A program made the translations under genes and the position numbers. Under the pieces are notes generated by a model that saw nothing but the letters and a program-made list of their open reading frames with translations, made no database searches and was not told where the DNA came from. From Aequorivita todarodis (GTDB taxonomy: Bacteria > Bacteroidota > Bacteroidia > Flavobacteriales > Flavobacteriaceae): DNA of 64,000 bases. Every line of letters begins with the position of its first letter. Positions within the stretch are counted from its first letter, which is position 1. Where the stretch lies: positions 22,659 through 86,658 of the forward strand of contig NZ_JAQQTG010000003.1 of NCBI RefSeq assembly GCF_028561335.1. The letters are read 5' to 3'. This document shows positions 10,616 to 41,851 of this stretch, piece after piece.

Positions 10616-12994
10616 TTAAATAGCAGACGAATATAAATGCGACTGAAACCCGATAAATGCATTTCTGATTTCAGGAATACTGCCCAATTCATTTTTTGCA
10701 TCTGTAATAGCGTGGTATTTTAAAACCAATAAGTTGCTCAATTTGCTTTCATCCAATTCTTCAACGCCTGTTTTTACGTATTGATCCAGTACAAAGTTGA
10801 GAAATTCCTGTTGGGCTGGGTTGTAATCATTAAAATGGATTTTTGCCTTTTCAGCTCTGTGCATTCGCAGCATTAATGATTTGTTGTAAGCTATATAGGC
10901 GAGCACGTCAAATAGATCGCTGTCTTCACCTTGTACCAATTTTCGTAAATCTTCCAACTGCGCCGTGGTATATCCCTTTTCTGACAGTTCTTCAAGTAGT
11001 TTTCTGCGCGTGCTTGGAAGGCTCCATATTTTCCGTAGCTCATCCTCACTTTTAAATAGTTGGGGGATGTCTCCAAATAAACTTCTGATAAATTCCTCGG
11101 CAGAAATAGGTTTTCCGTCAGAATTCCAGAAAGAGGTTTTTACCATTGAATCAATTTCCACTGCTTTTTTATCTGAGAGCCTAATTTTAATAAGGGCTCT
11201 TGGCGGTTTTTCGCAAACGCACGGGTCATTTTCGCAAGCATAGCAAATTGGGTCAGGTTCTTTGGCACAAATACAGGGTTTCTCTCCGCAATCCTTACAA
11301 TGCTTGGATTTTCCGCCTTCCGTGGGTTCTGCGGGATCTAAAGGTTCGCCGTCCCATTCTGGATCTTGGAAATGTTTATGGGCTTTTACAAAATCATAAA
11401 TGGTGAAATAATCCTTATTGTCAAACAATCGCGTGCCGCGACCCACAATTTGTTTGAATTCTATCATTGAATTAATAGGTCGCATCAAAACGATATTGCG
11501 TAGCTCTGGGGCATCTACACCTGTGCTCAACTTTTGTGAAGTAGTAAGTATGGTAGGGATGCTCTTTTCGTTGTCTTGAAAGTCCCGAAGGTGCATTTCG
11601 CCAATCTTGCCGTCGTCCGCCGTTACTCTGTGGCAATAATTTGGGTTTTTGCTAACAGCATACTGATTGATTAAATCTCTAATAGCAGCAGCGTGAATTT
11701 GGGTAGCACAGAAAACCAGAGTCTTTTGGGTTTGGTTGATACTCTCCATAAAAAGCTTTACACGATAGGCTTCACGCTCTTTAATCTCAATAATTCTATT
11801 AAAATCCGCTTCTGTATATACACGTCCTTCTTCAACTTCTCCAAATTCTATGTCATCATCATTGGTATATGTATATTCATCTAATGTTGTACTGATTTCC
11901 TTTACTTTAAAAGGGGTTAGGAAACCATCATTAATGCCTTCTTTTAAGGAATAGATATATACTGGTTCACCAAAATATTTATAGGTATCGCCATTAATAT
12001 CACGTTTTGGTGTAGCCGTTAATCCCAACTGGACCGCTGGGCTGAAATATTCCATAATGGCACGCCAAGAGCTTTCATCTTTGTTGCCTCCACGGTGACA
12101 CTCATCTATAATGATGAAATCAAAAAAGTCTGGCGGATATTCCCCAAAGTAGGGCGAATCGTCAGGGCCACTCATAAAGGTTTGAAATATGGTAAAAAAG
12201 ATATTGCCATTTTTTGGCACCCGTTTCTTCTTGCTTATTTCAGAAGGAGCAATGCGTACCAAGGCATCTTCTTCAAAAGCGTTAAAACTATTGAAGGCCT
12301 GGTCTGCCAGAATGTTTCTATCTGCCAAAAAAAGTATGCGTGGGCTTCTGCTGCCATCCCGTTTTAAATTCCATTTGGCGTGAAATAATTTCCAGGCAAT
12401 TTGAAAGGCAATTGCGGTCTTGCCTGTTCCTGTTGCCAGCGTTAATAAAACCCGGTTCTTTTTTTCGGCAATCGCCTCTACTACTTTTGTAATTGCGTTT
12501 TCTTGGTAATAGCGCGGTTGCCACGTACCGCTTCTATCTTCAAAAGGGATGGCGAAGAGACGTTCTTTCCAGTCGGCAATTTCAACTTTGTATTCTTCTT
12601 TTGGGGCGGGGAAGGTCATTTCCCATAACTCCTCTGGGGTGGGAAATCTTGAAACGTCGCCTTCCGTGGCCTCGTCCATATCTACGCCATATATTTGCAG
12701 GCCATTGGTGGCGTAGGCGTAACGGATGTTTAGGCGTTCTGCATAATCCTTGGCTTGCCCCAACCCGTCTGTATAGTATAGCTCTCTTTTTTTGGCTTCT
12801 ACCACGCCAATACGCAGGTTTTTATACTCTAAAATATAATCTGCAAAAATGGGTTTGGCGCGCTTGCCGTGGCCTATTAAACGTCCTTTGGTTATGGGAA
12901 ACTCCAAACGCAAGCGCGAGCCCTCAACAATGCCCCATCCGGCGGCTTGCAACGCGGGTGTAATTAGGTCGTGTTTGGTTTGGGCTTCGTTCAT
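10616..12994 (-). CDS. hsdR: Type I restriction enzyme R subunit (EcoEI/EcoR124-like helicase-nuclease)
   Basis: 792 residues. The N-terminal nuclease region shows a D...E-x-K type motif (ADYILEYK then VVEAKK, about residues 51-69). An SF2 translocase follows: Walker A GTGKT near 189-193, DECH box at 297-300, TATPKR near 325, and motif VI QIVGRGTR near 513. Residues 566-594 hold two copies of C-x2-C-x4-C-x-C, probably zinc binding. The C-terminal helical part matches the EcoEI R C-terminal type. Together with HsdM and HsdS it should cleave DNA lacking the host methylation. It is last in the locus, 162 bases after the AlbA_2 gene, a gap rich in short repeats. Confidence 0.92.
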   Translation of the reverse strand: MNEAQTKHDLITPALQAAGWGIVEGSRLRLEFPITKGRLIGHGKRAKPIFADYILEYKNLRIGVVEAKKRELYYTDGLGQAKDYAERLNIRYAYATNGLQIYGVDMDEATEGDVSRFPTPEELWEMTFPAPKEEYKVEIADWKERLFAIPFEDRSGTWQPRYYQENAITKVVEAIAEKKNRVLLTLATGTGKTAIAFQIAWKLFHAKWNLKRDGSRSPRILFLADRNILADQAFNSFNAFEEDALVRIAPSEISKKKRVPKNGNIFFTIFQTFMSGPDDSPYFGEYPPDFFDFIIIDECHRGGNKDESSWRAIMEYFSPAVQLGLTATPKRDINGDTYKYFGEPVYIYSLKEGINDGFLTPFKVKEISTTLDEYTYTNDDDIEFGEVEEGRVYTEADFNRIIEIKEREAYRVKLFMESINQTQKTLVFCATQIHAAAIRDLINQYAVSKNPNYCHRVTADDGKIGEMHLRDFQDNEKSIPTILTTSQKLSTGVDAPELRNIVLMRPINSMIEFKQIVGRGTRLFDNKDYFTIYDFVKAHKHFQDPEWDGEPLDPAEPTEGGKSKHCKDCGEKPCICAKEPDPICYACENDPCVCEKPPRALIKIRLSDKKAVEIDSMVKTSFWNSDGKPISAEEFIRSLFGDIPQLFKSEDELRKIWSLPSTRRKLLEELSEKGYTTAQLEDLRKLVQGEDSDLFDVLAYIAYNKSLMLRMHRAEKAKIHFNDYNPAQQEFLNFVLDQYVKTGVEELDESKLSNLLVLKYHAITDAKNELGSIPEIRNAFIGFQSHLYSSAI

Positions 12995-13036
12995 TTGTTT
13001 ATGAAAATAATTTTCAAGATTTATCCATATTATAGG

Positions 13037-13153
13037 TGTTGATAACTGTAGTTAAATGTTGATAACTATCACATAACCGTCACATAAGAATACCCTTGTA
13101 TATCAAGGCGTTTGAAGCCTTTCGACTTTTTAATACGTAAACGTATCACATAA
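13037..13153. promoter_or_regulatory. Short-repeat cluster upstream of hsdR
   Basis: Two copies of TGTTGATAACT start 20 bases apart (13037 and 13057), three copies of TCACATAA lie at 13069, 13080 and 13146, and a perfect palindrome ATACGT-AA-ACGTAT occupies 13133-13146. This lies in the only sizeable gap of the restriction locus, just before hsdR, so it is a candidate promoter/operator controlling the nuclease subunit. No binding protein can be named. Confidence 0.4.
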
Positions 13154-13156
13154 AGA

Positions 13157-14602
13157 TTATGCCCAAAAAGGAATGTAACTTGCATATTTTCTTGATTTAT
13201 TTGTGGGATCTACTTCTTTAATTACGTTTTCTTCAAGGGCATCGCGGATTATTCTAGATGCAATGGAGTAATTTCTCGCTTCAATCTTAAAGCGTTCCCG
13301 AAGACTTTGGTTTGTCATTTTTTCATTGGAAACGTGTTTTAAACAAGCGTGTTGATAACAGGCTCTAATTTTTTCCTTTTTATCTAAATCATTTAACTTT
13401 TTGTAGCTGTACATTGCTACTGTAGTTCTATTTTCACTTGCTTCCACATTAATTGGTGGAAGCTGAAACAATTCATTATAATAAATTACTTTATCTAAGC
13501 CACTTCCTTTTTCCTCGCAAAAACCCAAACGACGCATCAAATCAGCTAATTTTTCATTTCTTGAACGATAGGCATCAATAAATCTATCGGGTGTTATTAA
13601 TGGAATACCTGGATTAGAGATTTCAATCCTATCTGAGTAAACTTCTATCATCGGAAAACCTTTGACTGTGAAATCTTGATGTATAAGCGCATTTGCAATT
13701 AATTCTCTTATAGCGATTTCGGGATACATTCTACTTTCTGTACGTAAGACTTTCCCTATTTCTTCATTGGCGGGCAAATGGCTGTTTACCCAATTTACCA
13801 AACCTTCAAACCCTAATGCATAGCCCCGCCCTCCAATTTGTTCACGTTCTGTTTCAACTTTGTTCTTTCCTTTGTATAAAATTACTCGAACAGTTTTTCT
13901 ATAAACCGAATCGAAATCCTGTAAATTTTTTGCAAACAAGACAGCTCCAAGCTGTGTGATGGCATATCCTTTATTTTTTATAACTAGACCTTCTTCAACA
14001 AACTTTTCAATTACTCCTTCTTGATTCGTTGGATACGGCAATTTCAATAAATCAAAATAGGTCTCTGTACTTAAAAGCCTTACTATATCTGCTATGGTTA
14101 AACCATCACTTGCTATTTCTTCTTCAAAAGGCTTGCTTTTTTTACGCCATATTTTAGCTTCTTTTTCTGGAAATTCTGATAGCTTTCTGGTTATGCTACC
14201 TATTCTTATATAGGCATTCTTCATAAAATCAACAGGCCTGTTGTGTGCTGCAGGAATTACAAAAACAGCAATACGCCTGTTCTCATCATAATTGAATTCG
14301 AAAATATTAAAGTCTATACGTGGATCGATACGCTGTGATAACCAATGCTCAATTTCTTCATTCCCTTTTTTATGGGTCTTGGGCTTAAATGTGGTGCCTA
14401 AAATAGTGTGTGTTTTATCTTCAACGCCAAAAACCAAATAACCAAAATCTTGATTGTGAATACAAGCACCGTTGGCCAAAGCGGAGATACGCTCGCCGAT
14501 TTCCTCAACAGCGTGATAGTTGTGCTTAAACTCTACCCATTCACTCTCGTGGGGCTGTTTAACCAGCTCATTAATAAGTTCTATCAACTGTTTTTCATTC
14601 AT
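13157..14602 (-). CDS. AlbA_2 (Schlafen-type) DNA-binding / GHKL-like ATPase protein in the type I locus
   Basis: 481 residues. The N-terminal part (about 10-150) matches the AlbA_2 putative DNA-binding domain: ESEWVEFK, then LVFGVEDKTH. The middle carries a GHKL-type region with RELIANALIHQDF (about 290) and the EEKGSGLDK loop (about 365). The C-terminus looks like a winged-helix DNA-binding segment. Such proteins are usually annotated as ATP-binding transcriptional regulators and recur inside type I restriction loci. The start overlaps the hsdS stop by 4 bases, so it is translated with the specificity subunit. Its role (regulator, immunity partner, or separate defence effector) is unknown. 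Confidence 0.8.
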   Translation of the reverse strand: MNEKQLIELINELVKQPHESEWVEFKHNYHAVEEIGERISALANGACIHNQDFGYLVFGVEDKTHTILGTTFKPKTHKKGNEEIEHWLSQRIDPRIDFNIFEFNYDENRRIAVFVIPAAHNRPVDFMKNAYIRIGSITRKLSEFPEKEAKIWRKKSKPFEEEIASDGLTIADIVRLLSTETYFDLLKLPYPTNQEGVIEKFVEEGLVIKNKGYAITQLGAVLFAKNLQDFDSVYRKTVRVILYKGKNKVETEREQIGGRGYALGFEGLVNWVNSHLPANEEIGKVLRTESRMYPEIAIRELIANALIHQDFTVKGFPMIEVYSDRIEISNPGIPLITPDRFIDAYRSRNEKLADLMRRLGFCEEKGSGLDKVIYYNELFQLPPINVEASENRTTVAMYSYKKLNDLDKKEKIRACYQHACLKHVSNEKMTNQSLRERFKIEARNYSIASRIIRDALEENVIKEVDPTNKSRKYASYIPFWA

Positions 14603-15699
14603 ACTTCAACTGCTTTATTTGTCAACTCTCCCGCAAAGGCTTTTTGGAGAATGGATTTTTTGAGTTCTTCTAATGCGGCTAACTTATTATTATAAGGAAT
14701 TATAATTTTCTCTACTTCATTCTCTAAAAGACTTATTCTTTCTCTGATTTTTATTTGTGCTGTTATATTTTTTGGAAAATTTAATATTAAATCTTTTAGT
14801 GAAGAATTTGAAATCACGGGTTGGGCGGCTTGTCGGGCTAAACTACGAAGATTTTTATGATTGAGTAAGTATGTCAAAAACTGAAAATCAAAATCGTATT
14901 TCATATTTGTAATTTGAAAAGCGTTATCTGTAAGCCAAATGGGCTGTTCGAGGTATCGTACGTTTCCACAGAGAGCACCCACTCTACCAATAATAATTTG
15001 TTTGCCAGACAAGTTGTATTTATTGTGATATCCTGCAATACCATTACCGCCAAATACAGGATAATCGCCCTCGACCATATTTTTTGAGGTCAAGTTTTGC
15101 CCACTTTTCAATTTTATGACGTTTGCAAATTCTTGCTCCTCCCAACCTTCGCCACGCTGGCTAAAAACGGCATTTAGTTTAGACTGAAACAGCTCCTTGG
15201 CGTTTTCTATGTTTTTTTCAATATTGGCCTTGGCCTGGTCTATTGCCGCAAAGGCCTGGTCTAAAATGGCTACTATTTGGTGTTGTTCTTGGAGAGGTGG
15301 GATTGGGATTTGGATTTTTCGCATATTCCCTTGGTTCAATTTGGGAACAGTCATCCCGGATACAAAAGGTAATAAGTTCTGAAAATTTAAATTATAAATT
15401 AACCAATGATCATTTAAGATTTCTCTTTTTGGTCTCAAAACGTGGGCGTGATTATTAACCCAAGTTTTCCCATTAATAATGAATGCGCTCTTATCTCCAG
15501 ATTCCCATTTAGCTCCATCTTCACCAAGCAATACGAGTTGCTCATCAAACAGATAATTTTTTACATAACTTAAAATGCCTGTTGCTCCATAATATGGATA
15601 GTCACCCTCAATCCTATCTTTTTTTGTTATAGGCTTTCTTTTATTATCGAGTATATCACACACATTTCCTAAATCTTGAATTTTCCAACTCTCTCTCAT
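14599..15699 (-). CDS. hsdS: Type I restriction-modification specificity subunit
   Basis: 366 residues with the classical two-half layout: target recognition domain 1 (about 1-130), a conserved helix after IPIPPLQEQHQIVAILD (about 132-170), target recognition domain 2 (about 180-300) and a final helix ending in SILQKAFAGEL. The HsdS reads the bipartite DNA target for both methylation and cleavage. Both halves look intact, so a functional system is expected. Overlaps the ORF6N gene upstream and the AlbA_2 gene downstream by 4 bases each. The recognition sequence cannot be predicted by eye. Confidence 0.93.
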   Translation of the reverse strand: MRESWKIQDLGNVCDILDNKRKPITKKDRIEGDYPYYGATGILSYVKNYLFDEQLVLLGEDGAKWESGDKSAFIINGKTWVNNHAHVLRPKREILNDHWLIYNLNFQNLLPFVSGMTVPKLNQGNMRKIQIPIPPLQEQHQIVAILDQAFAAIDQAKANIEKNIENAKELFQSKLNAVFSQRGEGWEEQEFANVIKLKSGQNLTSKNMVEGDYPVFGGNGIAGYHNKYNLSGKQIIIGRVGALCGNVRYLEQPIWLTDNAFQITNMKYDFDFQFLTYLLNHKNLRSLARQAAQPVISNSSLKDLILNFPKNITAQIKIRERISLLENEVEKIIIPYNNKLAALEELKKSILQKAFAGELTNKAVEV

Positions 15700-16103
15700 A
15701 TTATTGTAAAGTCTTTGGATAATTGCAGCAATTGCTGATGGTTGCCTATTGTTTTTCGCATCTGTACAAAGGCGTTCATAATTTGGATGCTTACGGCAAT
15801 GGCTATATCACTTTTTAATACTGCTGATAACATACTAACATCTTGTTCGGTGAAGACATAAGGTAACGTTCTTCTTTTTGCGGTCGCCATTTGCGACTGC
15901 AAATTATCCCACTCTGTTGTAGCAAGTTGAAACATAAATGAAGAAGGGAAACGCTTATTGTTTCTCTTTACCTGTTCATTTAGCCTTTTGGTTTTCACAT
16001 TATATAGTTCGGCCAGATGATAATCCGTCATTATCTGTTCGCCCCGGCAAGTAAAGATTCTATTTTCAATTAAAACAGGCGTTATTTCATCTTTCCCGCT
16101 CAT
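15696..16103 (-). CDS. ORF6N-domain protein embedded between hsdM and hsdS
   Basis: 135 residues. The N-terminal two-thirds match the ORF6N domain (VLIENRIFTCRGEQ, LAELYNVKTKRLNEQVKRN, VFTEQDVSMLS), a KilA-N-related DNA-binding fold first described in phage proteins and also frequent in Bacteroidota chromosomes. The protein is on the short side; many relatives carry an additional C-terminal segment. It overlaps hsdM and hsdS by 4 bases each, so it is translationally coupled in the middle of the operon. A regulatory or DNA-binding accessory role is inferred. Confidence 0.8.
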   Translation of the reverse strand: MSGKDEITPVLIENRIFTCRGEQIMTDYHLAELYNVKTKRLNEQVKRNNKRFPSSFMFQLATTEWDNLQSQMATAKRRTLPYVFTEQDVSMLSAVLKSDIAIAVSIQIMNAFVQMRKTIGNHQQLLQLSKDFTII

Positions 16104-17554
16104 ATCAACTCCTTAACAGATTCTAACAGGGTACTGGTTTCCCTATCCAAGCGTTGCATTTCGGCCAAAATAGTTTCTGGGCTTCGCAAGGGTGCTTCTT
16201 CGGGGGTGTTTGGGTTTTTTACGCTTAAATCAAAAGTGGTTTCAGCTATTTCCGCCACTTTAATATTCCACGATTTTTCCGTTTCCGGCTTTGTGGCTTG
16301 TAGGCTTACAAATTCCTTTAAATCATCATCATTTAACGGGTTGGTCTTGCCCATATTTCTGCCCGGGTCCAATTGGTAGTACCATATATTTTTAGTGGGC
16401 TCTCCCTTTTGGAAAAACAGCACGACCGTTTTTACGCCCGCGCCCAAGAACGTGCCGCTTGGCATGTCCAAGATTGTATGTAGGTTGCAGCTTTCCAGCA
16501 ATTGCTTGCGCAGGGCAATGGAGGCATTATCGGTATTGCTCAAAAAAGTGTTTTTAATTACGATTGCAGCGCGACCGCCTGTTTTTAGGCTTTTTAGAAA
16601 ATGTTGTAAAAACAAAAAGGCTGTTTCGCCGGTTTTAATGTCAAAATTCTGTTGTACTTCCTTGCGTTCCTTTCCGCCAAAAGGTGGATTTGCAAGGATT
16701 ACGTTGTATCGGTTCTTTTCCTGTATGTCGCGAATGTTTTCGCCCAGCGTATTGGTGTGGATGATGTTTGGGGCTTCAATGCCATGGAGGATCATATTCA
16801 TAATGCCTATTACGTAGGCGAGGTTCTTTTTTTCCTTGCCGTAAAAGGTGTCTTCCTGCAGGGTCTTTAGGTTGCTCGTGGTCTTGTCCATACGTTTGTA
16901 CATATAGTCGTAAGCCTCGCACAGGAAACCACAGGAGCCCGCGGCGGCATCGTATATCTTTTCCCCCATTTGTGGGTTTACTACTTCAATCATCGCCCTA
17001 ATAAGTGGCCTTGGGGTGTAGTATTGCCCGCCATTGCGGCCGGCATTGCCCATATTTTTAATCTTGGTTTCGTACAGATGGCTAAGTTGGTGCTTGTCCT
17101 TTGTACTTCGGAACGGCAACTCGTCCACATAGCCCAAAATCTCGCGTAGAATGTACCCGCTTTGGATTTTATTTTTAAGCTCAGAGAAAATTTCGCCTAT
17201 TTTGTATTCTATGGTCTGCGGGTTATCAGCTTTCTGTTTAAAGCTTGCCATATACGGGTATAGTTCGCCGTCCACAAACTGTATTAGGTCAGTACCGGTT
17301 AGAGCGATATGGTGGTCCAAATTGCCCTGGGCATCCTTGGGCATTGCCCAGTTGTTCCACCGAAATTTTTCATCCAATATAAAACTGTATTCATTGCCCT
17401 GAAGTGCGGCTTCATCGGCTTTGTCTTTTTCTAAATCGTCCAAGTAGCGCAAGAACATGATCCACGAGGTTTGCCCTATGTAATCCAGTTCACTATCTGC
17501 CCCTGCATCCTTGAAGAGGAGGTCATCAATATTTTTGAATGTTTGCTCGAACAT
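16100..17554 (-). CDS. hsdM: Type I restriction-modification DNA methyltransferase subunit
   Basis: 484 residues. The N-terminal helical domain of HsdM (about 1-140) is followed by an N6-adenine methyltransferase domain: GQYYTPRPLIRAM region (about 175), the S-adenosylmethionine motif AAAGSCGFL (about 201-209) and catalytic motif IV NPPFGG (about 287-292). It methylates adenines in the target selected by HsdS, protecting host DNA. First gene of the restriction operon, overlapping the ORF6N gene by 4 bases. The start ATG gives a standard HsdM N-terminus (FKNIDDLLFKDAG). Confidence 0.95.
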   Translation of the reverse strand: MFEQTFKNIDDLLFKDAGADSELDYIGQTSWIMFLRYLDDLEKDKADEAALQGNEYSFILDEKFRWNNWAMPKDAQGNLDHHIALTGTDLIQFVDGELYPYMASFKQKADNPQTIEYKIGEIFSELKNKIQSGYILREILGYVDELPFRSTKDKHQLSHLYETKIKNMGNAGRNGGQYYTPRPLIRAMIEVVNPQMGEKIYDAAAGSCGFLCEAYDYMYKRMDKTTSNLKTLQEDTFYGKEKKNLAYVIGIMNMILHGIEAPNIIHTNTLGENIRDIQEKNRYNVILANPPFGGKERKEVQQNFDIKTGETAFLFLQHFLKSLKTGGRAAIVIKNTFLSNTDNASIALRKQLLESCNLHTILDMPSGTFLGAGVKTVVLFFQKGEPTKNIWYYQLDPGRNMGKTNPLNDDDLKEFVSLQATKPETEKSWNIKVAEIAETTFDLSVKNPNTPEEAPLRSPETILAEMQRLDRETSTLLESVKELI

Positions 17555-38679: not shown

Positions 38680-38935
38680 AACTTTACTTCTGCTGCACCT
38701 TTTCGGTGGAATATTTACCGCAAAGACACAGCGATATTTTCAAAATATTTTAAGCTCAAAAAAACGCAACTTATTCGTATTAATTGACTTAAAAAAATAT
38801 TTTTTAACACTATTCGGGATAAATTACCTAAATTTAGTCTTTTAATAACATATTTTAAAAAAGTAATATCCTCACATTACAATTTTAATCCTCCATTTTT
38901 TTTGGAGGCTAACCCTAAAATTAATTTTGGATATT
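38680..38935. other. AT-rich gap before the TIR cassette
   Basis: 256 non-coding bases, clearly AT-rich, with a small hairpin CCTCC-N9-GGAGG (38890-38908) 27 bases before the TIR start codon. No other gene or RNA is recognised. Confidence 0.4.
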
Positions 38936-39403
38936 ATGGCAGATTCTTCACAAAGAAAAGTTCAGATCTTCACATCCTACGCTCACGAAGATGAGGACCT
39001 TAAAAACGAAATGGACAAATACCTTAAGGTATTAAAACGCTCCGGAAAAATCGACGCTTGGAACGATAGGGCTCTTATTGCGGGCCAGGAATGGAATGAT
39101 TCCATCATGAACGAATTGCGGAAGGCAGATGTAATTTTGCTCCTAATCAGTGTGGACTTTAATGCTTCAGACTTTATTTGGGACAAAGAGTTGGCAGAAG
39201 CCATGCGCCGCCACGAAGCGGGCGAGGCTTATGTAGTGCCCATTATTCTTAGAAACTGCAAATGGACCTCTTTGCCTTATGCAAAATTGCAGGCTTTGCC
39301 CCGCAATGCCCGTCCAATCTTGGACTACCCAGATCGGGATGCTGCGTTTACGGAAGTGGCAGACGGGATCGAGCGGCTCGTTGACCATATTTTGGCAAAA
39401 TAA
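38936..39403 (+). CDS. TIR-domain protein with intact catalytic glutamate
   Basis: 155 residues, essentially a single TIR domain. Visible elements: beta-A FTSYAHEDE (12-20), a BB-loop-like region DRALIAGQEW (44-53), ADVILLLIS (64-72), then F-I-W-D-K-E-L with Glu85 in the place of the NADase catalytic Glu of other TIR proteins, and VVPIILRNCKW. Bacterial TIR domains consume or modify NAD+ in several anti-phage systems; activity here is inferred from the conserved Glu. The gene lies 52 bases upstream of a paralogous TIR-like-RDD membrane protein on the same strand. The ATG at 38936 is preferred to one at 38927. Confidence 0.88.
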   Translation: MADSSQRKVQIFTSYAHEDEDLKNEMDKYLKVLKRSGKIDAWNDRALIAGQEWNDSIMNELRKADVILLLISVDFNASDFIWDKELAEAMRRHEAGEAYVVPIILRNCKWTSLPYAKLQALPRNARPILDYPDRDAAFTEVADGIERLVDHILAK

Positions 39404-39455
39404 TTTGCTGTATGAGTATAGTAGTTATTTAAACTAACCAATAAAATTTTTTAAA

Positions 39456-40622
39456 ATGGCAACCAATCAGTCAGAAGTATCCACAGATACAATAAACATC
39501 TATTTTTTAGCGGCACCGGAGGATGAACAACAGTGTATTGCCGTAAAAAAATATCTTGGCCCTGTAATAAGAAATTCAAAACGGCCCATTGAAATTGAAA
39601 GCGATTTTGAAATTCCGCCAGGGCAGGATGTAAAGCAATACAAAGAGAAATTGTATCAGGCAGATATTGTACTCGCTTTTATAAGTGCCGATTTTATCAA
39701 CGATGATGAAACGTATCTGCGCACGCAAAAAGTGATAGAACGGTACAACAGAAACGAAACCGTAATGCTCCCTATTTTGGTTCGCAACTGTATGTGGAAA
39801 TCTACTCCGTTTGTAAACCTGCCATTCTTGCCAAAAAACATCCAACCCCTTAACAACAAGCAATTTTGGAACAGTGAAGACGATGCCTTAACGGCGGTAG
39901 TAACCGATATTTATGAGGCCATACAGAATTTCAGCTATGAGGATAAAGAGGAATCTGATTTAGCTGAAGAAAAAGTTTCTGAATTGTTGACCGAGACCCA
40001 TATTGAAAGAACACCACCAGAACCTGAAACGAATGGGACGGCAAGCGATAATGAGGCACCCCATGTTGAAAAAACAAAGGAAAAAGTAGAAACCAAAAAT
40101 GTTGCGCAACACCCGCCTAAAGCGAAACCCAAAAACATCCAGAACGTCGCCATGGACGTGGATTGGCGAAAAAGCTACTTCAAGGATGTGCTGTGGAAAC
40201 GTGCCGTGGCCTTTATTCTGGACAATATAATCACCGCAATTCCTTCCATATTAATAGCCGTTGTATTATGGTCGCTGGTGTCGGTACTTATTACTGATGC
40301 GGAAGATGTTTCTGATACCGAGTTTACTTTTATTACCCTTTTCAGCTTTTTCTTCTACTTTATTATTTGTGCCATTTTCGAATCTTCCAAATATCGGGGC
40401 ACTTTTGGCAAACAGATTATGAAACTGGAAATTACAGATAGAAATGGGCATCGGGTTTCTTTTCTTAAAGCCTTTGTGCGAAATATTTTCCGAATGCTTA
40501 CAGCCATTTCCTATCTTTTGGTAATTCCTTTTATCCTTCAAATTTTCACATTTCTTAAAACCAAAAAATTCTTTCACGATCAAATCTCATATACGGTAGT
40601 GGGTGAAAAGATGAAGCGGTAA
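39456..40622 (+). CDS. TIR-like domain fused to an RDD membrane domain
   Basis: 388 residues. The N-terminal ~150 residues align with the upstream TIR protein (YQADIVLAFISADF; MLPILVRNCMW), but the catalytic Glu position is Thr90 and the FTSY motif is degenerate, suggesting a non-enzymatic TIR. Residues about 155-235 are an acidic, Pro/Lys-rich linker. The C-terminus is an RDD family membrane domain: Arg249 and Asp256 in WKRAVAFILDN, helices at about 250-275, 290-310 and 350-375, and the TFGKQIMKLEITDRNG segment. The fusion would place a TIR scaffold at the membrane next to an active TIR partner; this role is inferred. Confidence 0.85.
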   Translation: MATNQSEVSTDTINIYFLAAPEDEQQCIAVKKYLGPVIRNSKRPIEIESDFEIPPGQDVKQYKEKLYQADIVLAFISADFINDDETYLRTQKVIERYNRNETVMLPILVRNCMWKSTPFVNLPFLPKNIQPLNNKQFWNSEDDALTAVVTDIYEAIQNFSYEDKEESDLAEEKVSELLTETHIERTPPEPETNGTASDNEAPHVEKTKEKVETKNVAQHPPKAKPKNIQNVAMDVDWRKSYFKDVLWKRAVAFILDNIITAIPSILIAVVLWSLVSVLITDAEDVSDTEFTFITLFSFFFYFIICAIFESSKYRGTFGKQIMKLEITDRNGHRVSFLKAFVRNIFRMLTAISYLLVIPFILQIFTFLKTKKFFHDQISYTVVGEKMKR

Positions 40623-40750
40623 AAGATTTCTGAAATAAGCTTTTTTTCAACAGTATTTATTCGAAAAACAGAATAATTTTTAGAGGAATGGGAGCGAAAG
40701 AAATCTCTGCGGTGGAATATTTACCGCAAGCAGCGGATGCCAAGAAAATT

Positions 40751-41851
40751 CTAAAACAATTTTAGCTGTGGATTTTTAAGTTGCAAAAAATGTGAATTGT
40801 CCAAAGGTTCAATTTCCCTATTTTTCAAATATTTCTTTTTTGCGATTGCCATCGTGTCCTTCACTTGTTCGCTGATGGTTCCCTCGCCTTTTATGCGTCT
40901 TCCCCAATGGCTGTCGTTGAGGTTTCCGCCGTGGCATTCCGCTATTTGGTTTAAGATCCGTTCCGCTTTGTCGGGAATGGTTTTGTGTGCCCAATCCTTA
41001 AAGATCTCCGCAATTTGCCCATTCAAACGGACAATGGTATAACCAACATCCTGCGCCCCGAGTTCCGCAACTTTTTTTACCAAAGGAAGAATTTCGTGGC
41101 TATTGAGTGATGGAATTATAGGCGCCATCATTACCCGAACGGGAATGCCGTTTTCTGAAAGCGTTTCCACGGTTTTGAGCCGTTGTTTGATGCTTGTCGT
41201 GCGAGGCTCCAGCAACCGCCGCGTATCTTCGGAAAGGGAAGTGATGGAAATATTTGCCGAAATAAGGTTCAGCTCTGCCATTTCCTTCAAAATATCGAGA
41301 TCGCGAAGAATCAGCGAATTTTTGGTAATGATGCCCGTGGGGTGTTTCCATTTCAGCATTACTTTTAGGCATTTTCGGGTGATTTCAAGTTTGCGTTCCA
41401 GCGGCTGATAACAATCCGTATTTCCTGAAAAAACGATAGTGTTTCCCTGCCAGTTCTTTGAAGTGATCTTTTCTTCCAAAAGTTGCGGCGCATTTCTTTT
41501 AAAAAGAATATTTCTTTCAAAATCCAATCCTGCTCCATAGCCCCAATATTCGTGGCTATTTCGGGCGTAGCAATACACACAGCCGTGTTCGCAACCTTGG
41601 TACGGATTTGCAGAAAAACCCATCCCAACATCGGGGCTTTCCACTTTGTTTACAAATGTTTTTGGAAAAACTTCAATATAGTTTGTTTTGTTTTTATCTG
41701 CTTGTTCGCCTTCCGCTTCGCAGAAATTCAAATATTCATTTAGCACTTCGTGGCTGTTTTCGAAGAAACGGTTGTGTACATTTTTTTGGGCGCCGCGGCC
41801 TTTTAGGAATTCAGCAGACATAAAAAAACTTTGAAGTTTGGATTTCTTCAA
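40751..41851 (-). CDS. PA0069-family radical SAM protein
   Basis: 366 residues. The 4Fe-4S cluster motif CxxxCxxC is present as CEHGCVYCYAR (near residues 88-98). The N-terminal GRGAQKNVHNRFF segment and the following SPDVGMGFSANPYQGCEHG region are typical of the PA0069 subgroup, which is distantly related to SplB. Reaction unknown. Monocistronic by appearance. Confidence 0.88.
   Translation of the reverse strand: MKKSKLQSFFMSAEFLKGRGAQKNVHNRFFENSHEVLNEYLNFCEAEGEQADKNKTNYIEVFPKTFVNKVESPDVGMGFSANPYQGCEHGCVYCYARNSHEYWGYGAGLDFERNILFKRNAPQLLEEKITSKNWQGNTIVFSGNTDCYQPLERKLEITRKCLKVMLKWKHPTGIITKNSLILRDLDILKEMAELNLISANISITSLSEDTRRLLEPRTTSIKQRLKTVETLSENGIPVRVMMAPIIPSLNSHEILPLVKKVAELGAQDVGYTIVRLNGQIAEIFKDWAHKTIPDKAERILNQIAECHGGNLNDSHWGRRIKGEGTISEQVKDTMAIAKKKYLKNREIEPLDNSHFLQLKNPQLKLF

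Follow-up and report, generated by a model that had tools for sequence, protein, structure and literature searches.

The described systems that come closest to the locus considered here are the Thoeris systems with a TM-macro ThsA, the CRISPR-associated TIR protein Cat1 and the conflict systems coupled by EAD adaptors. In the first of these, an NAD-derived nucleotide has been proposed, in the part of the source that was available (PMC11204291), to cluster the TM-macro ThsA membrane protein. Cat1 is a TIR protein that cleaves NAD+, and the accessible text of its description gives D33, S68 and E74 as active-site residues (PMC12162218). EAD7 belongs to a group of adaptors that would bring effectors to the core components of conflict systems, as proposed in the available portion of the paper (PMC7159879). 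In the two papers on conflict systems that were checked, the RDD domain does not occur in the main text; PMC10910872 names it a single time, in a legend that deals with CRISPR-linked proteins. RDD as an established effector was not found in the literature searched, and no description of a TIR and RDD pairing was found in the open-licence literature (for the broader searches, among the papers listed). The statement of an earlier, sequence-only reading of this DNA that no TIR-RDD defence system had been described therefore holds within that scope.

The locus lies in a stretch of 64,000 nucleotides from Aequorivita todarodis (the window) and consists of two genes in a cassette of 1.7 kb. That two adjacent TIR-type genes lie on one strand, with the second fused to an RDD domain, was confirmed; 52 bp separate the gene for the TIR protein (TIR) from that for the membrane protein (TIRL-RDD, where TIRL is its TIR-like domain). 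The features are as follows.

38705..38723, + strand: left copy of a 19-bp direct repeat with two copies only in the genome.
38818..38935, + strand: likely promoter or regulatory region upstream of TIR, conserved with the L037 cassette.
38936..39403, + strand: TIR, soluble, 155 aa, predicted NAD+-cleaving enzyme (Pfam TIR_2, PADLOC ThsB model, AF2 model, invariant D44/S78/E85).
39188..39190, + strand: codon of the predicted catalytic Glu85, aligned to the Cat1 active-site E74 and invariant in 121 sequences.
39456..40622, + strand: TIRL-RDD membrane protein, 388 aa (Pfam RDD 68.4 bits, weak TIR_2; AF2 model).
39456..39935, + strand: TIR-like domain, TIRL residues 1-160, without the catalytic Glu and with a conserved WNSxDDA.
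39720..39725, + strand: Arg89-Thr90, in the place of the catalytic Glu in TIRL (R89 in 129/129, T90 in 103/129).
39936..40151, + strand: variable Glu/Lys/Pro-rich linker of TIRL-RDD (pLDDT <50 for residues 162-223 in AF2; dN/dS 0.31-0.32).
40191..40589, + strand: RDD membrane domain, residues 246-378 (Pfam RDD; invariant R249, D256, E309, K319, D375).
40711..40729, + strand: right copy of the 19-bp direct repeat, two copies only in the genome.

The TIR protein matched Pfam TIR_2 (PF13676) at 48.5 bits, above the curated cut-off. Structure prediction with AF2, which the sequence-only reading had put forward as a check, gave it a TIR fold, and the top match of this model in a fold search was one chain from the entry for the RPS4/RRS1 TIR heterodimer. 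By profile the nearest solved relative is Cat1 (E 4.9e-7), and the active-site residues D33/S68/E74 named in the accessible Cat1 text align, counted along the profile alignment, on D44/S78/E85. These three residues were identical in 121/121 TIR sequences; the 121 TIR and 129 TIRL sequences compared here are the top-ranked relatives, and the counts hold for the TIR/TIRL-RDD family, not for TIR domains generally. The PADLOC ThsB model matched TIR at 173 bits and TIRL at 64.7 bits, although the Pfam ThsB_TIR score of TIR was 15.1 bits, below the cut-off of 21.2, and PADLOC SAVED_TIR matched TIR at 32.8 bits through the TIR part of the model only. With its catalytic residues intact, TIR is likely to cleave NAD+. 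Two more TIR_2 proteins are present in the genome of the window (G000:C48:82166-82510 and 193286-193636, in frames of 461 and 507 aa).

The TIRL domain matched Pfam TIR_2 weakly, below the curated cut-off, and none of the 129 sequences had a Glu at positions 89-91. The sequence-only reading had aligned Thr90 to the catalytic Glu; the absence of the Glu was upheld, and the residue in its place is Arg89 (129/129) or Thr90 (103/129), depending on a one-residue gap. The Asp is kept (D50 in 128/129) and the Ser position is Asp or Asn. Within the WNSxDDA motif W138 and D143 were found in 129/129 sequences and S140 and D142 in 128/129, and many further positions are invariant across the 129. As TIRL has lost the catalytic Glu yet is strongly conserved, it would be expected to bind something fixed, and the split into an active and an inactive TIR that had been read from this one locus is borne out across the 121 TIR and 129 TIRL sequences. 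In the AF2 model of TIRL-RDD, for which the fold search covered the TIRL part, linker residues 162-223 had a pLDDT below 50.

At its C-terminal end the protein belongs to the RDD family (Pfam PF06271; 68.4 bits against a cut-off of 24.1), and the C-terminal part of the PADLOC PD-T4-6 model also matched the domain (36.9 bits). Some RDD proteins transport ions. All five of R249, D256, E309, K319 and D375 were invariant in 129/129 sequences; R249, D256 and D375 are presumably the conserved Arg and Asp residues that give the family its name. A search that admitted TIRL relatives of about 346-1102 aa returned 202 matches, and RDD was present in 120/120 of the best 120, with no other effector swapped for it. 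The invariant charged residues, together with an RDD in all of these listed relatives, suggest that the domain has a specific membrane activity and is more than a plain membrane anchor.

A genome scan with 20 TIRL-RDD proteins gave nine loci, from three Aequorivita, Mariniflexile, a Flavobacteriaceae MAG, a Chitinophagaceae MAG, Terrimonas and two Chloroflexota MAGs, and with L008/L063 (genome G209) and the window's locus 11 were read as DNA. At all 11, in both Bacteroidota and Chloroflexota, a TIR gene was directly upstream of TIRL-RDD on the same strand, and no TIRL-RDD without a TIR was found among them. The sequence-only reading had allowed that TIR-RDD homologues might never neighbour TIR genes in other genomes; the opposite was found, and its view of the two genes as a real unit stands. 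Among 28 Aequorivita genomes both genes were present in 4, neither in 24 and one alone in 0, but the four carriers hold the pair at one shared site, so the 28 genomes are not 28 independent tests. Together, the 11 paired loci and the both-or-none distribution in Aequorivita rule out chance co-location. Distances between TIR sequences and between TIRL sequences were correlated over the 11 pairs (r 0.81, 0/2000 permutations), which fits co-evolution and shared descent alike and does not separate them. In protein lists holding the best 120 of 510 matches (TIR) and the best 120 of 236 (TIRL-RDD), 20/119 TIR contigs matched the TIRL-RDD list by size, compared with 0.8 when sizes were shifted; because both lists end at these best matches, the 9/16 contigs of at least 30 kb that were unmatched prove nothing. 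A larger operon was rejected, as all-against-all BLASTP of the ORFs of the 11 loci found, outside Aequorivita-only pairs, only TIR, TIRL-RDD and one transporter in common, the transporter being shared by L040 with L037 and the window at about 30% identity.

The distribution of the genes is patchy and some TIRs stand alone. TIR was found at E 1e-30 or better in 6/397 Flavobacteriaceae genomes, full-length TIRL-RDD in 2/299 genomes, and TIRL-RDD in 1/301 Chloroflexota genomes, this one being the query genome itself. Four of the six Flavobacteriaceae TIR genes have a TIRL-RDD, and the five other than the window's are 77-81% identical. L066 (G129) carries a TIR orthologue without TIRL-RDD, and L067 (G037) an intact TIR with TIRL reduced to a stump of about 53 residues; the TIRs of these two loci are close orthologues, at 77-79% identity. 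In 395 Bacteroidota genomes there were 11 TIR matches besides the window's own, all at 50% identity or less, and TIRL-RDD was absent, within the stretch read, beside the five of these that were read (L068-L072, 40-50% identity). TIR can therefore persist without TIRL-RDD. Since orthologues persist without it (L066) or with a stump (L067), the possibility that TIRL-RDD is the antitoxin to a toxic TIR is disfavoured. In the L067 arrangement of TIR and stump (L067:6102-8258), a convergent gene beyond the stump encodes a patatin-like phospholipase (PADLOC effector phospholipase model, 195 bits). At L066:8518-10440 the TIR orthologue is convergent with a protein of 472 residues that has both a TIR domain and a hydrophobic segment, which may be another soluble and membrane TIR pairing.

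Four Aequorivita species carry the pair at one common position in the chromosome, next to HD and radical SAM genes. We fetched the HD locus from 20 of the 24 Aequorivita genomes without the pair (L125-L144). In 11/20 the site was empty, with HD and radical SAM genes adjoining and 8-100 bp between match ends; in 8/20 one or two further genes, designated S41 and x587, were between or after HD, and 1/20 had no radical SAM match. Proteins flanking the site in L125-L129 are 83-99% identical to those of the window. The S41 and/or x587 genes were also observed beside the cassette in L037-L039, and the HD/radical SAM site may be a small hotspot. In the window, the cassette is bracketed by the perfect 19-bp direct repeat at 38705-38723 and 40711-40729, of which no third copy within two mismatches exists in the 3.33 Mb genome. 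Homology to the empty site of L125 stops at 38685 and restarts at 40752, the window is homologous to the L037 cassette over 38818-40637, and both repeat copies fall between these limits. The repeat is a possible trace of insertion; none was found at L037 or L038, and L039 had a 21-nt pair at 76% only.

At fourfold sites, window and L037 agree at 98/164 in the cassette and at 256/563 in five neighbours, and the higher identity of the cassette is a hint, suggestive only, that it could have been exchanged as a unit. Identity to L037 was 92.6% over 121 bp at 38818-38938, compared with 58-61% at the fourfold sites of the two genes. Within the upstream region (38818-38935) are an inverted repeat, CTCC/GGAG, and a TAATTTTG box that ends six bases ahead of the ATG and that we take to be the Bacteroidota -7 consensus. 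Over all nine loci aligned no upstream block was conserved, the conservation being among Aequorivita only, and scans for sigma-70-type promoters and terminators were uninformative.

The anti-phage function proposed in the sequence-only reading was not supported, as there is no defence island, evolution is slow, phage and viral matches are lacking and two close TIRs do without TIRL-RDD; the interpretation overall was thus sustained for a real unit with an active/inactive split and not for the anti-phage function, which is unproven. No defence island was found among the 10 neighbours of the window's pair, of which one, regulator-like, weakly matches CARF and winged-helix models. Three of the 13 proteins flanking seven non-Aequorivita loci had PADLOC matches, and those of the neighbours in L043 (mad2, 49.5 bits) and L008 (RTasPolA, 121.6 bits) were judged to be cross-hits of housekeeping genes. 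No match was found in phages, nor in viral contigs, and the 15 plasmid records matched by tblastn each covered 40% of the query or less, chiefly the TIR-like part. Pairwise dN/dS (NG86), in which many dS values exceed 1 so that the figures are rough, was 0.045-0.065 for TIR in six comparisons among four Aequorivita and 0.02-0.07 for the neighbours; between the window and the other three Aequorivita it was 0.031-0.056 for TIRL, 0.11-0.19 for RDD and 0.31-0.32 for the linker. TIR and TIRL evolve like housekeeping genes and bear little resemblance to a phage sensor that evolves fast.

The third of these PADLOC matches concerns L044. Directly downstream of TIRL-RDD there, on the same strand, is a TPR protein that matches a Pycsar cyclase model (PycC/TPR) at 55.9 bits and is cut by the contig end (L044:6439-8418). 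The window itself holds, about 21 kb from the cassette, a type I restriction-modification locus (10616-17554) with HsdR-, HsdS- and HsdM-like proteins and a Schlafen/AlbA_2 protein between them.

Relatives of the pair carry additional domains, whereas no EAD or FHA was found by Pfam in either protein of the window. In L041, a Chloroflexi MAG, TIR has a C-terminal EAD7 (40.6 bits against a cut-off of 32). The same genome (G773) has 17 EAD7 places, 16 of them above the cut-off and one being the L041 TIR, a set with the appearance of a large adaptor-coupled network; the other Chloroflexota genome searched (G774, of L045) gave no EAD7 match. One or two N-terminal FHA domains are present on the TIRL-RDD of L042, L043 and P0116. 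These fusions point to phosphorylation and adaptor-coupled conflict systems as possible sources of input.

The reading that we prefer, at somewhat less than an even chance, is that TIR cleaves NAD+ and that TIRL-RDD reads the product or the assembled TIR and acts on the membrane. TIR would make an NAD-derived, ADP-ribose-type signal, or would make TIR-TIR contacts with TIRL; the signal or the contact could cluster or gate TIRL-RDD, and RDD would then alter membrane permeability, comparable to the nucleotide-driven clustering put forward for Thoeris with a TM-macro ThsA. Phage or some other stress might be what triggers it. A more specific form, which we regard as doubtful, is a new kind of bacterial immune relay in which the dead TIR, as a receptor, recognizes its active sister's product or filament and opens an RDD pore, and which, by analogy and taken jointly with that claim, could be a one-operon bacterial counterpart of the active/decoy TIR pairs of plants and the membrane TIR receptors of animals. 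The direction could also be reversed, with TIRL-RDD as a Toll-like membrane sensor or scaffold that nucleates TIR, and with NAD+ depletion as the output. This is rather unlikely in our estimate; the FHA input domains on TIRL-RDD in L042, L043 and P0116 agree with it, as do the best match of the TIR model to the RPS4/RRS1 heterodimer chain and the stacking of TIR domains to form the Cat1 active site, described in the available text (PMC12162218), while the invariant charged residues of RDD and the lack of any RDD swap in the 120 listed relatives point to more than an anchor. EAD7 on the L041 TIR can be read both ways, since it is a proposed effector recruiter in the accessible part of that source (PMC7159879), but would also give TIR an input of its own.

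Another, distinctly unlikely, explanation is an endogenous pair for envelope or ion-stress signalling that uses TIR chemistry and is unrelated to phages. Slow evolution and housekeeping surroundings fit such a pathway as well as they fit defence: the dN/dS of TIR, at about 0.05, is like that of its neighbours, defence domains are lacking in the window's neighbours and mostly elsewhere, phages and viral contigs have no matches, and four Aequorivita species share one chromosomal site. However, the patchy occurrence (4/28 Aequorivita for the pair, besides the Flavobacteriaceae and Chloroflexota counts above), the direct repeats round the window's copy with empty sites in relatives, and the tie of EAD7 to conflict systems speak against it. 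That the pair is a true Thoeris, in which a distant ThsA lies at another place in the genome and TIRL-RDD is an accessory, would account for the PADLOC ThsB scores of both proteins but is highly improbable, as SIR2, SLOG, macro and protease domains are all absent from the pair and the constant partner at the 11 loci is TIRL-RDD. No ThsA model, whether for a SIR2-SLOG or a TM-macro effector, matched among the ten neighbours and, the partner not being a ThsA, the pair is not Thoeris by composition. For a CBASS with a TIR effector, no CD-NTase or nucleotide-sensor domain was found in the pair by Pfam and no CD-NTase model matched the ten neighbours.

As judged from sequence, the pair is real, conserved and, as far as searched, undescribed, and its function is hypothetical. 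If the preferred reading of a TIR signal read at the membrane is true, the pair would be a membrane-effector branch of TIR signalling in which the signal reader is a former TIR enzyme, and would provide a role that can be tested for RDD, a widespread membrane domain. As the cassette is compact (1.7 kb), both-or-none in Aequorivita so far and present in named species of that genus, it can be readily tested.

Compared with the known systems, the pair is like Cat1 in that this is its nearest solved relative by profile, with aligned active-site residues, and unlike it in that Cat1 brings a CARF sensor of its own, with no mention of an RDD partner in the available part of the source. The EAD-coupled, NTP-dependent conflict systems (Kaur et al. 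2020) are linked to it by the EAD7 on the TIR relative in L041, but the window's proteins are without EAD and RDD is absent from the main text of that paper. With Thoeris of the TM-macro ThsA kind (E. coli CFT073 type), it shares one or more TIR proteins adjoining a membrane protein; the partner here joins RDD to a TIR domain from which the catalytic Glu is missing, with no macro domain and no ThsA homology, and the signal is a predicted one. With the RDD family membrane proteins (PF06271) and PADLOC PD-T4-6 it has the RDD domain in common, and differs from them in that its N-terminal domain is TIR-like.
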